From contig DYJV01000021.1 in the NCBI GenBank assembly GCA_020722945.1, positions 1 to 36,403 on the forward strand: 36,403 bases of DNA. Reading direction: 5' to 3'. Each line of letters starts with the position of its first letter. Position 1 is the stretch's first letter. This stretch comes from Candidatus Methylomirabilis sp. Its GTDB lineage: Bacteria > DYJV01. The position numbers and the translations under genes were made by a program. The notes under the pieces are model-generated. The model was not told where the DNA came from, searched no databases, and worked only from the letters and a program-made list of their open reading frames with translations. This document shows positions 4,611-10,084 of this stretch, in pieces.

Positions 4611-4783
4611 ATGAAATTTATAAACAATTATATTTTAATGTGTAACTTCTCAATACTACTGTAAATATTATAAAAATTAAAAATTGAAATATACTACTTG
4701 CACACTTAAAATAAGATTTTTATAATTTACTTACTGTATCTAAAAAATCTAAAGTTTTATAGTATCTTAAAAAACAAACTATC

Positions 4784-5062: not shown

Positions 5063-8000
5063 TTATCTCTCATTCGCCATTTTAATAATATCACTTTCTG
5101 ATAAAAGTTTATCACTGACACCTGAAAGATACTGTAGCCAATTCCACCTATATATATTCTGCTTCTCATTAACTCTGACAATTTCATCGATGGTTTTCTT
5201 GTCTCCTGCAAATTGAGCCATAAGAGTTACAATATCTCTAAAAGATGCTGGATTTTTGACTTCACCTTTTACCTTTTTAGGATTTGGATATATACTCTCA
5301 TAATCAGGATTAGCAGTAATATCTATTCCATTATAAGGCTTTCTTACAAGTATAGGCCATGCTCTTGACTCTACCATCATCTTTGAAATATCAAAAGTTA
5401 AATCATCATTCATTAATCCTTGACCAGTAGGGCATGTTGAGAAAAACTCAATAATTGAAGGTCCCTTATAAGCAATAGCCTCTTTTAATATTTTAAGAGA
5501 GTAAATAGGATCATGAATGGATAATCTCGCTACATAAACCCCTGGAATCGCAATTGCTTGAGCAACCAACTCTTTATGGAAATCTTCTTTCCCTTTCAAC
5601 TCCAGACCATATGGAGAGGTGGTTTTGTTAGAACCAAATCTGCTTGCTCCAGATTTTTGGAAGCCTGTATTCATATATGCTTCATTATTGTATATAACCC
5701 AAGTAATATCTTGATTTTCACCTAACGCAAAATTCAAACCTTGATTCCCTATATCGTAAAAAGCCCCATCACCGCCAAAAACTATAACTTTAGTCAATTT
5801 ATCTATATAATAATTTCTAAACGCACTAAAAAGAGAGATACGAGTTCCGAGAGCAGCAGCACTTGCAGTTCCAAAACCAAAATGTCCACTTGGGTAAACT
5901 CTTGAATTAAAAGGGTTGGAAAGACATGATACTTCTGCACACCCTGTTGCATTAATGGTGTAAATATAAAAACTATTCTCAATCATATGCTGTATCCCTT
6001 TTGCATGAAAACGCTGAATTAATTGAGGTAAAGATTTATAAGTTTCTTCAATAATTTTAGGATTTTCCCTAACCATTTCAGCAGCAGTAAAAACAAGATT
6101 CTCTATCACACCCTCTCCACAACCGGGACAAAGTGAGTGTCCACCGGGTAAAAATTTCTGTCCAGAGTATTTTAGCATAACCTTTTGCAGTATTTTGCTC
6201 TCATTAACTTCAGAGGCCAAAGATGTTGATATATCAAGATCTTTTATACTTTGAGGGGTAAAATCAGATGTAAAATTTACATCATTTTTATTTTTTAATA
6301 TCAGTGCACCAAATTTACAATTTTTTACACAAACTCCGCAACTTTTACAATAATCAGAATCTACATTAATATTAAAAAAAAGTTCTCTATCTTCTTCAGA
6401 TGTTTTACCGGTAAATCTCTTATAATTTAGCTTTTGGAAAAGTTTTTTAACTGAATCCGGCAATTTTAGAAAATCTTCAGATTTCAATATAGTAGTTCTC
6501 AGTGCATTATCTGGACAACCTATTACACATAATCCACAATTAACGCATTTCTCAGCCTGAAAAACAGGCAGTTCTGACCCTATCAGATTTGTTTTGTTAA
6601 ATTTTGAAGTTTTACCTGGAATTATATTTAAAAAATCTTCCCATGGAATATCACCACCATTTTGAACAGGAATTAAAACTTTATTAACAAATCTATCAAA
6701 ATATTTCTCTCCATAAAGATTAGGAAAATCAATAGTTGCAAGTTCATCATCAGTTGAATACTCAACTTTATCTATGTAAAATTTTAACTTTTTAGGTGTG
6801 CTAATTTTGTTTAAATTATCAGTTGTAGTATTTGCATCTCTAATTTCAAGTTTATCTGAGGATGGTATTGAAGTAAAAGGAATATTCAGAAGAGAAAGAT
6901 TTTTTTCAACAACTTGAGGTTTCTTATCTCCAAACTTTTGAAGAAGCTCCTCTTTAAAAATTGATAAGAATTTATCTTCCGGTAAAATTTTAACAAAGTG
7001 ATTAATAATACCAAGCATTGGTGTCCCCGGTAAATTTTTCTTTAAAACAGAAAACACAGCAGAAGTAGCATCAAAAATGATTAAGTTAAATTTATTATCA
7101 TTTAATATATTTTTTATGTTAGCAGATACCGATTTCATAAGATTTTCTACATCTTTTGCAGTATTAACAAGGAGATATCCACCATTTTTTATAGATTTAA
7201 GAAAAGGAACAAGTGAATCATCAATAAGGTATTTATCATTAAACACTCCCAGTATCTCTATCTTTGTTAAATTAGAGCAGTTTCTAATCGGAAAATCAGA
7301 AACCCTCAAACTCATTACAACCATTCCACCTTTCCTTGAAGCACCATATTTTGCACTTGTCTGAACATATTTCCCAGATTTTGCAATTATTTTTGCAAGC
7401 GTTTCCTGAGAAGTTTTGACACCTTCTGCTCCTATGCCAACAAAGGTGATACCTGTCTCCTTCTCCTTAAAATCTTCCTTTTTTACAGGAGTAATAGAGT
7501 TGATCCCAGATATTCCAACATAAAAATTATTTTTAGGTTTTTGGGATAGCATATTTTCAATAATTCCAATACAATCTTCAATACTAAAATTTTGACTACC
7601 AAGGCCATAAACACCACTCACTATTTTAGGAGTTACATTGACAAAATTTGCAGCTTCATTAACATCTTTAAATAAAAATTTCTCATTTGCCTGAGCAACT
7701 TTTTCAAGAACAGTAATAACTTTGGCACTCTGAATGCCAAAAGCTATCTCCTCTGTGCAAGAGGGGTAAAATAAAACAGGTCTTACCAAGCCAACTAAAA
7801 CTCCCTTACTCCTGTAATAATCAACAACCTCTTTCATTGTTTCAGCACCTGCTCCCATCATAACAACTACAAACTCTGCATCCTCTGTAAAATAATTTTC
7901 TACAACATCTATATTAGTGCCAAGAATTTTGTTTGCTATATCCATAACAGCTTTAACATATTTTTTAACATTTTTAAGTGCATAGTCTTGCTTAACTTGC

Positions 8001-8803
8001 GTAGGCATAGTAACATTTATATCTGTAAAAGTCCCCATTAGAACAGGATTTTCAAAATCAGTTTGAAACATACGATTGGGAGAACCAACAAAATATTTCA
8101 AAAATTCATCTGATAAAACTTTAACATTTTCAATGCTGTGGCTTTTAAGGAAACCCTCTCCAGCAATGATTGCAGGAAGCATCACCTGTCTCTGCTCAAT
8201 AGCTTTGCATACTAAAGGAATTAGGTAATGCATCTCTTGATTGTTGCTGCTCATAAGTAAAACCCATCCAGTCCCTCTTGCTGCATAAAGATCAGCATGA
8301 CTATTATGAATACTCAAACCCCCTTTATTTACCTCTCTTGTTTGGAGAGTCATAAGAGCTGGGAGTCTTTTACCTGCTATTGAAAACATATTTTTAAATT
8401 TGTATGTTAATCCTTGGGAAGAGGTGTTATCAGCAAATCGTCCACCCTGAGAAGCAGCTCCTTCAAGAAAAGCCATAGCACCCAACTCACTCTCAGGTTG
8501 AAAATAAAATATCTTTTCACCATAGACATTAACAAAACCATCTGAATAAGCTTTCGCCATACCCTCTGCAATAGGCGTTGATGGAGTAATAGGATAACCA
8601 ACCAACCCTGTCACTAATCTTTTAAGCACATTCACAACCACACTATTCCCGTCACCAATAAAGTCTTCCTGCTTTTTTAATGCTAAAAAATTCTCTTCCC
8701 CAATTTGTATTTTCAAATCTTCAATAAATTTAGATGAGTCAAAGAGATATTTACCATTAAACCTATAATTAAAATCGTAATCAAAATTTATTTTTTTTAG
8801 CAT
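5063..8803 (-). CDS. fused 2-oxoacid:ferredoxin oxidoreductase (pyruvate:ferredoxin oxidoreductase type)
   Basis: A 1246-residue single-chain enzyme that oxidatively decarboxylates a 2-oxoacid, probably pyruvate, with CoA to acyl-CoA, CO2 and reduced ferredoxin (or the reverse). Domain order matches PFOR/NifJ: alpha domain with YPITPSTP (Thr73) and TREV (Arg156), which align with the substrate-binding Thr and Arg of pyruvate enzymes; transketolase-like domain II; gamma domain (about 455-650); ferredoxin domain with CVNCGLCVIGCP (about 752-763) and CKSCGVCVKNCK (about 818-829); then the TPP domain with CPGCGEG (about 891) and GGDGAFYDIGNQG (about 1006). Later Cys in GCAEVSC and STCP fit the proximal cluster. 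It carries about 40 extra N-terminal residues and is longer than usual NifJ (about 1170-1200). AAAGGAG precedes the ATG. Single gene with a palindrome-rich control region. Substrate assignment is inference. Confidence 0.9.
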   Translation of the reverse strand: MLKKINFDYDFNYRFNGKYLFDSSKFIEDLKIQIGEENFLALKKQEDFIGDGNSVVVNVLKRLVTGLVGYPITPSTPIAEGMAKAYSDGFVNVYGEKIFYFQPESELGAMAFLEGAASQGGRFADNTSSQGLTYKFKNMFSIAGKRLPALMTLQTREVNKGGLSIHNSHADLYAARGTGWVLLMSSNNQEMHYLIPLVCKAIEQRQVMLPAIIAGEGFLKSHSIENVKVLSDEFLKYFVGSPNRMFQTDFENPVLMGTFTDINVTMPTQVKQDYALKNVKKYVKAVMDIANKILGTNIDVVENYFTEDAEFVVVMMGAGAETMKEVVDYYRSKGVLVGLVRPVLFYPSCTEEIAFGIQSAKVITVLEKVAQANEKFLFKDVNEAANFVNVTPKIVSGVYGLGSQNFSIEDCIGIIENMLSQKPKNNFYVGISGINSITPVKKEDFKEKETGITFVGIGAEGVKTSQETLAKIIAKSGKYVQTSAKYGASRKGGMVVMSLRVSDFPIRNCSNLTKIEILGVFNDKYLIDDSLVPFLKSIKNGGYLLVNTAKDVENLMKSVSANIKNILNDNKFNLIIFDATSAVFSVLKKNLPGTPMLGIINHFVKILPEDKFLSIFKEELLQKFGDKKPQVVEKNLSLLNIPFTSIPSSDKLEIRDANTTTDNLNKISTPKKLKFYIDKVEYSTDDELATIDFPNLYGEKYFDRFVNKVLIPVQNGGDIPWEDFLNIIPGKTSKFNKTNLIGSELPVFQAEKCVNCGLCVIGCPDNALRTTILKSEDFLKLPDSVKKLFQKLNYKRFTGKTSEEDRELFFNINVDSDYCKSCGVCVKNCKFGALILKNKNDVNFTSDFTPQSIKDLDISTSLASEVNESKILQKVMLKYSGQKFLPGGHSLCPGCGEGVIENLVFTAAEMVRENPKIIEETYKSLPQLIQRFHAKGIQHMIENSFYIYTINATGCAEVSCLSNPFNSRVYPSGHFGFGTASAAALGTRISLFSAFRNYYIDKLTKVIVFGGDGAFYDIGNQGLNFALGENQDITWVIYNNEAYMNTGFQKSGASRFGSNKTTSPYGLELKGKEDFHKELVAQAIAIPGVYVARLSIHDPIYSLKILKEAIAYKGPSIIEFFSTCPTGQGLMNDDLTFDISKMMVESRAWPILVRKPYNGIDITANPDYESIYPNPKKVKGEVKNPASFRDIVTLMAQFAGDKKTIDEIVRVNEKQNIYRWNWLQYLSGVSDKLLSESDIIKMANER

Positions 8804-8823: not shown

Positions 8824-8833
8824 TTGTATACAA
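8824..8833. promoter_or_regulatory. operator-like palindrome O1 (TTGTATACAA)
   Basis: Perfect 10-base palindrome between the predicted transcription start and the start codon of the 2-oxoacid oxidoreductase gene. It matches the other boxes at 8907 and 8929. Position fits repression by roadblock. Confidence 0.6.
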
Positions 8834-8848
8834 TAATCTTAAAAATTA

Positions 8849-8877
8849 ATTATGCCATACAAAAACAATATTTGCAA
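8849..8877 (-). promoter_or_regulatory. promoter of the fused 2-oxoacid oxidoreductase gene
   Basis: Minus strand: TTGCAA (8872-8877), 17 bases, CATAAT (8849-8854). It is flanked by operator-like palindromes on both sides. Confidence 0.5.
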
Positions 8878-8906
8878 CATATTTTTAAGAACATTATTTT
8901 AAAAAA

Positions 8907-8916
8907 TTGTATACAA
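8907..8916. promoter_or_regulatory. operator-like palindrome O2 (TTGTATACAA)
   Basis: Second exact copy of the 10-base palindrome, about 30 bases upstream of the predicted -35 box of the oxidoreductase gene and 12 bases from O3. Confidence 0.6.
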
Positions 8917-8928
8917 ATGCTTAATGCT

Positions 8929-8945
8929 TTGTATACTGTATACAA
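8929..8945. promoter_or_regulatory. operator-like palindrome O3 (17 bases, two overlapping half-boxes)
   Basis: TTGTATACTGTATACAA is a perfect palindrome about a central base. TTGTATAC and GTATACAA are the same half-sites as in O1 and O2, so the region contains four related boxes in about 120 bases. Such T-GT-N-AC-A symmetry is typical of GntR-type (FadR subfamily) operators; the regulator is not in this window. Confidence 0.65.
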
Positions 8946-9001: not shown

Positions 9002-9028
9002 TTGACTTTTTATGTCACTACTTATAAT
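9002..9028 (+). promoter_or_regulatory. possible promoter of the glycosyltransferase gene
   Basis: TTGACT (9002-9007) and TATAAT (9023-9028) are both good boxes but the spacer is only 15 bases. TAATTT at 9025-9030 would give 17. The leader to the ATG is about 45 bases. Confidence 0.45.
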
Positions 9029-9079
9029 TTTTAACTTAAAATTATTTTTAACTGATTAAAAAGGATAAAATAACAATAG

Positions 9080-10084
9080 ATGAAAATATTATCTTTATGC
9101 CACACATTCTTCCTTGATAAATTAAGAGAAGTATACGACATCTACAATATTGGATTTTACGATTACAATCAGAGAAAGATAGATATAAAAATTTATGACA
9201 TAAATGAAATAATAAATTTAGCACCTTGGAAACCTGACCTAATATTTATTGGAGACAACAGCTTCCCTATACTTTTCACAGGACTTGAAAGTATCGACAT
9301 CCCAACCCTTTGGTATTCTGTTGACACCCATCTCCACCAATGGCATATATTCTACTCAGGTATTTTTGACATTGTCCTCTTTGCACAAAAATTCCCTTTA
9401 GAAGATACAATAAACTACAATTTCAATAATATAAGGCTCTGGTTCCCCCTTTACTGCAACCCTGATATTCATAAAAAATTAAATTTAACAAAAAAATACG
9501 ATCTATGTTTCATCGGCTCTCTAAACAAAAATTTAAATAATGACAGAGTTAGCTTTATTAGTAGATTAAAAAATAAAATTGATAATTTTTATGTTGGCGA
9601 AGGGGAATTCGTTGATAAATTCAATGAATCTATATTAGTTTTAAATCAAGCTGCAAATAATGATATAAACTTCAGGACTTTTGAAGCTATGAGTTGTGGC
9701 TCTCTGCTATTGAATGAGAGAATAGTTGCAAATGGATTTGATGAGATTTTCAAGGAAAATAGAGATATGATCTGTTACAACAGAGATAATATCGACGAAA
9801 TCATATATAAGGTAGAATATTTTACCAAAAACATTGATGAAACCAATGAAATAGCAGCAAACGGCTACAATTTGGTCAAAGAACAACATACTATTTACAA
9901 TAGAAGGGATCAATTTATAAAGTTAATAAACTCTTTAAATTTAAACGAACTTAAGATTAAAAGACTCAGCAACGTCAAAAATATAACATTTTATCTAAAA
10001 ATGGCATATATAGCAGCTTCTGAATCTTACTCACCACACCCAATATCTGATTTTTACATAGAAATGGCACAGAAATTAAAATAA
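9080..10084 (+). CDS. CgeB-like glycosyltransferase
   Basis: 334 residues, no signal peptide or membrane segment, so cytosolic. The N-terminal half has a GT-B-like start (MKILSLCHTF) and PDLIFIGDNS. The C-terminal half carries FRTFEAMSCGSLLLNE (about 203-219) and a run ending in HTIYNRRDQFIKLI, which is the pattern of the CgeB/YkvP glycosyl-transferase group (GT-B, group 1-like C-terminal domain). Such enzymes transfer a sugar from an activated donor, often to proteins or surface glycans; donor and acceptor are not evident. An AAGGA lies about 14 bases upstream of ATG, rather far. It stands alone between divergent and unrelated genes. Transfer to flagellin or a surface protein is possible but not shown. 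Confidence 0.75.
   Translation: MKILSLCHTFFLDKLREVYDIYNIGFYDYNQRKIDIKIYDINEIINLAPWKPDLIFIGDNSFPILFTGLESIDIPTLWYSVDTHLHQWHIFYSGIFDIVLFAQKFPLEDTINYNFNNIRLWFPLYCNPDIHKKLNLTKKYDLCFIGSLNKNLNNDRVSFISRLKNKIDNFYVGEGEFVDKFNESILVLNQAANNDINFRTFEAMSCGSLLLNERIVANGFDEIFKENRDMICYNRDNIDEIIYKVEYFTKNIDETNEIAANGYNLVKEQHTIYNRRDQFIKLINSLNLNELKIKRLSNVKNITFYLKMAYIAASESYSPHPISDFYIEMAQKLK

Follow-up and report, generated by a model that had tools for sequence, protein, structure and literature searches.

Palindromic boxes before a fused oxidoreductase gene suggest a tandem FCD-type GntR regulon for propionate and pyruvate oxidation

Which regulator might read the palindromic sites crowded into the short region before a fused 2-oxoacid:ferredoxin oxidoreductase gene, and do the same sites stand before other genes of the genome? 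The stretch of DNA that we analysed, hereafter the window, comprises 36,403 nucleotides of a contig from Candidatus Methylomirabilis sp. A preliminary description of it had proposed a GntR/FadR-type operator with four boxes at this gene and, possibly, a regulon for 2-oxoacid metabolism. The relevant features of the window are the following.

5063–8803, minus strand: fused 2-oxoacid:ferredoxin oxidoreductase gene (1246 amino acids; POR_N, PFOR_II, POR, two [4Fe-4S] and TPP domains)
8824–8833, no strand: box 1, exact TTGTATACAA, downstream of the predicted -10 and ahead of the start codon, at about +8 to +17
8849–8854, minus strand: predicted -10 of the oxidoreductase gene, CATAAT, 17 bp from the -35 (consensus match only)
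8872–8877, minus strand: predicted -35 of the oxidoreductase gene, TTGCAA (consensus match only)
8907–8916, no strand: box 2, exact TTGTATACAA; the predicted -35 lies 29 bp downstream
8929–8945, no strand: 17-bp perfect palindrome TTGTATACTGTATACAA, in which two boxes overlap at a centre-to-centre distance of 7 bp
9080–10084, plus strand: glycosyltransferase-like gene, divergent, on the other flank of the gap

The oxidoreductase scores 385 bits against TIGR02176 (classical PFOR), below the curated cut-off of 911 bits, and its YPITPS motif and the arginine of its TREV motif align with solved PFOR. Judged by its sequence, it belongs to a divergent fused PFOR-like family, common mainly to Tharpella-type genomes, with a putative 2-oxoacid substrate. 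The intergenic gap of 276 bp (18% G+C) holds what had been described, namely two exact copies of TTGTATACAA, a 17-bp palindrome made of the same half-sites, and a TTGCAA-17-CATAAT promoter on the minus strand at 8849–8877, which sits between box 1 and box 2. The positions also agree with the described arrangement of one box behind the predicted start and the others before it: box 1 comes after the predicted -10, and the remaining sites come before the -35. The count of four boxes holds if the 17-mer, which contains two GTATAC cores 7 bp apart, is taken as two overlapping boxes, and not otherwise. Measured from box 1, the site centres lie at 83, 105 and 112 bp, and box 2 is separated from the nearer half of the 17-mer by 22 bp between centres, about two helical turns. 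When the gap was shuffled 20,000 times with its dinucleotides preserved, two exact boxes never occurred, and one box did in 0.3% of the shuffles. Any perfect 17-bp odd palindrome arose in 6.6% of 4,000 shuffles, so palindromy on its own is weak evidence; the construction of the 17-mer from the same half-sites is not. By eye, the glycosyltransferase-like gene appears to have its own TTGACT...TATAAT promoter at about 9003–9032, separate from the boxes.

A search of the whole genome (2.51 Mb in 184 contigs, estimated contamination 5.8%), which the preliminary description had proposed as a check, identified exact TTGTATACAA eight times, including the two copies in the window. Seven of the eight are intergenic according to ORF-based gene calls, and they head carbon-oxidation operons or regulator genes. 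The sites outside the window, together with two inexact ones, are as follows.

C50:4763, exact box: at tandem GntR/FCD regulator genes
C10:4624, exact box: upstream of carboxyltransferase (mmdA/PccB-like) and methylmalonyl-CoA mutase genes
C82:2492, exact box: upstream of a DUF4212 and Na/solute symporter gene pair
C111:11405, exact box: upstream of sucCD
C123:28323, exact box: upstream of fumarase alpha and beta, then HdrC- and HdrB-like genes and a further two, HdrA-like, assigned by eye
C56:44308, exact box: within an ORF
C50:18091, 17-mer with one mismatch: overlapping the -10 region of porG-porD-porA-porB-nuoE-nuoF
C173, near-exact box GTGTATACAA: at a propionate–CoA ligase-like gene (prpE), with TATACA 17 bp after TTGACA

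Near-exact boxes stand before at least two operons of this genome, porGDAB-nuoEF and the propionyl-CoA ligase. For the 17-mer we used only matches with no or one mismatch; at three mismatches the matches equal those of the control. At four promoters (gntR1, sucC, fumA and prpE) the -10 is a TATACA inside the box, 17 bp from the -35. In the light of the established biochemistry of the methylmalonyl-CoA route, the targets can be read as a pathway with a putative direction of flux: uptake, propionyl-CoA formation, carboxylation, mutase, succinyl-CoA synthetase, fumarase and pyruvate:ferredoxin oxidation. The suggested 2-oxoacid regulon is borne out in that 2-oxoacid and linked carbon-oxidation operons are marked by the box; its scope is wider than had been thought, running from propionate/acetate to pyruvate.

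The placement of the boxes is remarkable and their genome-wide number is not. The 10-mer TTGTATACAA occurs 8 times and the reversed-pattern control AACATATGTT 4 times. The exact boxes are intergenic in 7/8 cases, compared with 0/7 for the TNGTATACNA variants examined and 1/4 for the reversed controls, of which the other 3/4 lie inside ORFs (Fisher P = 0.0012). All of the examined TNGTATACNA variants fall inside ORFs, and we dropped them as sites for that reason. Random frequency had been named beforehand as an argument against regulatory boxes; the count of 8 against 4 is within what base composition allows, and the intergenic placement is non-random. The pattern TTG-N18-TGTATACAA, in which the TATACA of the box serves as the -10, has 4 matches in this genome, at the four promoters named above, and 12 in 39 other genomes, a set that leaves out this genome and its order-mate. 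This excess has a Poisson P of about 3e-4, which is approximate since base composition differs among genomes.

The preliminary description, which saw no regulator gene in the window, had also raised the question of a GntR-type gene carrying the same boxes, and the tandem pair on contig C50, with an exact box at its promoter, answers it.

C50:4059–4772: GntR1, GntR winged helix-turn-helix and FCD domains
C50:3392–4057 (L024:3392–4057): GntR2, GntR winged helix-turn-helix and FCD domains

Read from the sequence, the likely start of GntR1 is the TTG at 4736 after GGGGGG, which would place the box 27–36 bp upstream. Both proteins have an N-terminal GntR winged helix-turn-helix (PF00392; E 5e-17 for GntR1 and 3e-16 for GntR2) and a C-terminal all-helical FCD domain (PF07729; E 4e-18 and 6e-9, respectively). 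Neither matches an NCBIfam equivalog at its cut-off. In the PDB, the GntR1 profile finds its best sequence match in 7xp0 (PmiR of P. aeruginosa, E 1.3e-32), and FCD structures, including PmiR and Atu1419 (VanR group), are the top matches of its AlphaFold monomer model (pLDDT 89). The recognition segment ISRTPIREA is identical in the two proteins, so GntR1 and GntR2 could both read the same box. The potential metal ligands of GntR1 (H140, H144, H187 and N209) are invariant. Compared against the FCD ligand pattern D/N-x3-H, H, H, most ligands are missing from GntR2 here and in G001, a genome of the same order, and are retained in Tharpella-type GntR2, which suggests from sequence that the former two might be ligand-blind partners. 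A U32-peptidase-like gene (L024:2172–3392) lies directly 3' of the tandem regulators, as it does in distant relatives (L227–L231, L241).

The tandem arrangement extends to other lineages. Homologues of GntR1 were found in 11 of the 14 genomes searched, G001 included; GntR1 and GntR2 neighbour each other wherever the contig permits, followed by the U32-peptidase-like gene, and the GntR1 of relatives is usually preceded by a near-exact TTGTATACTA-like site. G001, the closest of the genomes compared, keeps the tandem regulators, with TGGTATACAA, a variant of the box, at -36. GntR1 and GntR2 each form one clade with 97% support apiece, so the regulator pair is old. The comparison of orthologous upstream regions, likewise proposed at the outset, bore on the oxidoreductase itself. 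Fused oxidoreductases 60–62% identical to that of the window are present in Candidatus Tharpella-type genomes, and a box with no or one mismatch precedes the gene by about 115–215 bp (L043–L049 and L058), some 10 bp ahead of a strongly conserved TTGCYA-17-TATA promoter; in L041 the box has two mismatches. Across L041–L058, about 100–200 bp before the oxidoreductase gene, the spacer of the TTGCYA-N17-TATA that follows the box is itself conserved and ends in TTTTTAGCG, which may mark a second regulator.

In ten Tharpella-type genomes, about 18 of 27 exact boxes by our own count stand before the oxidoreductase, por, nuoEF, prpE/acsA or an acyl-CoA dehydrogenase-mutase locus. Among the rest, four are one repeat in G046 (L222:2853, L223:42, L224:42 and L225:3809), mostly at contig ends; we excluded this near-identical four-copy repeat from the regulon. 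Tharpella-type nuoEF forms a separate operon with its own TTGACA-17-TATACA box promoter, and in the genome of the window nuoEF closes the por operon, which is itself box-controlled; since nuoEF is boxed both ways, its regulon membership has been retained despite operon rearrangement. The 17-mer-like composite TTGTATACAGTACACTG upstream of Tharpella-type por indicates that the overlapping double site recurs. The orthologous sucC of Tharpella-type genomes has no box, and sucC is therefore not a conserved target. The exact boxes of G001 number only four; they head other genes, for branched-chain amino-acid-type ABC transport and a porin-like protein, or fall within an ORF. We rejected a regulon in G040, where ten exact boxes are mostly inside ORFs and there is no GntR1 homologue, as well as a 416-residue GntR1-GntR2 fusion in G047, which is an assembly gap of N. 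In G021 (L242–L252), which is more distant than the order and has a GntR1 homologue, exact TTGTATACAA occurs 11 times against 2 reversed controls, and by eye several of the boxes lie before citrate synthase-, aconitase-, dsrAB- and thiolase-like genes; they may constitute a related central-metabolism regulon.

Taken as a whole, the boxes are probably (at a rough probability of 0.78) the operators of an FCD-type GntR1/GntR2 system, itself box-bearing, that would control a dispersed regulon from propionate to pyruvate and acetyl-CoA. The predicted targets are the propionyl-CoA ligase, the carboxyltransferase with methylmalonyl-CoA mutase, sucCD, the fumarase with its Hdr-type electron-transfer subunits, porGDAB-nuoEF, the oxidoreductase of the window and the Na/solute symporter; together they would take in most of the steps by which propionate is oxidised via methylmalonyl-CoA, yielding pyruvate and acetyl-CoA. 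The regulon most likely controls the oxidation of propionate/acetate through pyruvate, mainly by repression. What the analysis shows directly is the sequences, their positions, their conservation and the family of the regulators; from these we infer that GntR1/GntR2 bind the boxes and repress, that a metabolite of the propionate or pyruvate pathway induces, and that a loop may form. At single-site promoters, a dimer of the regulator would sit over the -10, whose TATACA lies within the box, and block RNA polymerase, and the block might be lifted once a metabolite of the propionate or pyruvate pathway frees the regulator. At the window promoter, with box 1 behind the start and further sites upstream, dimers on adjacent sites, at distances of 22 and 7 bp, might bind cooperatively, and a short loop could form across 83–112 bp. 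Since most targets have a single box over the -10, looping would not be the general mechanism and is possible only at the window promoter. We advance more tentatively the idea that the two diverged tandem paralogues act jointly on shared overlapping operators, as a hetero-oligomer or as a sensing regulator with a ligand-blind partner, forming a switch for the whole pathway of anaerobic propionate/pyruvate oxidation.

The same regulators might instead activate transcription at the window promoter and at Tharpella-type PFOR and PrpE genes, acting from the sites that precede the -35. FadR has such a dual role, both activating and repressing, and in Tharpella-type genomes the sole box before the PFOR gene lies just upstream of its TTGCYA-17-TATA promoter, as does the prpE box about 8 bp before TTGACT. 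However, the window has an exact box just downstream of its -10, and the -10 inside the box at gntR1, sucC, fumA and prpE and at the nuoEF of relatives is a repressor position which, together with the por 17-mer over its -10, argues for repression; we consider activation unlikely. Still less probable is the explanation that the operators belong to another GntR/FCD protein and stand at the tandem pair only by coincidence. The recognition-helix residues are widespread in the subfamily, so that several members could read GTATAC-cored sites, and a third GntR/FCD homologue does exist at C164:34482. This gene, however, is placed after ABC-transporter genes with no such box upstream, whereas the tandem genes have an exact box across their -10, near-exact forms precede the orthologous regulator in relatives, and the genomes with the tandem pair largely coincide with those that box the shared pathway genes. 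It is scarcely credible that the boxes are AT-rich palindromes which arose by chance and regulate nothing: AT-rich composition allows their number, but not readily their pairing in the gap, which the shuffles never reached, nor their intergenic placement, functional coherence and cross-lineage conservation at orthologous promoters.

The proposed regulator-operator pair would provide a model of transcription control for anaerobic propionate/pyruvate oxidation in uncultivated lineages, both Tharpella-type and that of the window, for which we found no such model in the literature searched. It might carry the theme of GntR propionate regulators (PrpR/PmiR) beyond the methylcitrate cycle and into the methylmalonyl-CoA route, and targets in related metagenome-derived genomes could be annotated with the help of the box.

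A literature search for TTGTATACAA with GntR returned nothing relevant. LurR of Desulfovibrio was rejected as a precedent for por regulation, being a two-component, sigma54-linked activator with an unrelated 16-bp motif. In C. glutamicum, GntR1 and GntR2 are functionally equivalent paralogues for gluconate catabolism and glucose uptake (PMC2230225). They resemble the present system as a paralogous GntR pair co-ordinating a central-carbon regulon; the difference is that here two diverged paralogues share one box-bearing operon and the GntR2 of the genome analysed lacks most metal ligands. Atu1419 of Agrobacterium fabrum (VanR group) regulates hydroxycinnamate degradation, with looping by a tetramer and methylenetetrahydrofolate as effector both proposed (PMC7797058). 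It matches GntR1 in sequence and fold, and its 10-bp operator ATGTATACAT has the same GTATAC core, with several boxes per promoter and one over the -10. Its metal ligands are N-H-H-H, whereas those of GntR1 are H-H-H-N. By analogy, the box spacing of 83–112 bp in the window might permit an Atu1419-type loop between palindromes.

The best characterised relative of the GntR1/GntR2 system is PrpR/PmiR. Operators of the FadR subfamily have TKGT/ACMA half-sites, with a 2-nt gap in some groups including PrpR (PMC4494728). The half-sites TTGT-AT-ACAA of the box satisfy this pattern and the 2–3 nt spacing rule of the subfamily, and the GntR/FadR-type symmetry noticed from the start fits FCD regulators whose own promoter carries the box. 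In P. aeruginosa, PrpR (PA0797, the same as PmiR) binds upstream of prpR and represses the propionate (prp) operon, with ATTGTCGACAAT as its predicted operator (PMC9765439, PMC13086498). Both systems have an FCD-type GntR protein, an ATTGT-N2-ACAAT site with 2-nt spacing, a site before the regulator's own gene and a tie to propionate catabolism, and PmiR is among the top fold matches of GntR1 as well as its top sequence match. The consensus here is ATTGTATACAAT, which differs from ATTGTCGACAAT only in the two central bases (AT here, CG there). The genes targeted here belong to the methylmalonyl-CoA route or are ferredoxin-dependent, in place of the 2-methylcitrate cycle genes, no methylcitrate operon being among the exact-box operons found, and there are two tandem regulators here and one there. 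Because the operator departs from that of PrpR, we file the system as a separate FCD-GntR regulon, though one that would be PrpR-like in its working.
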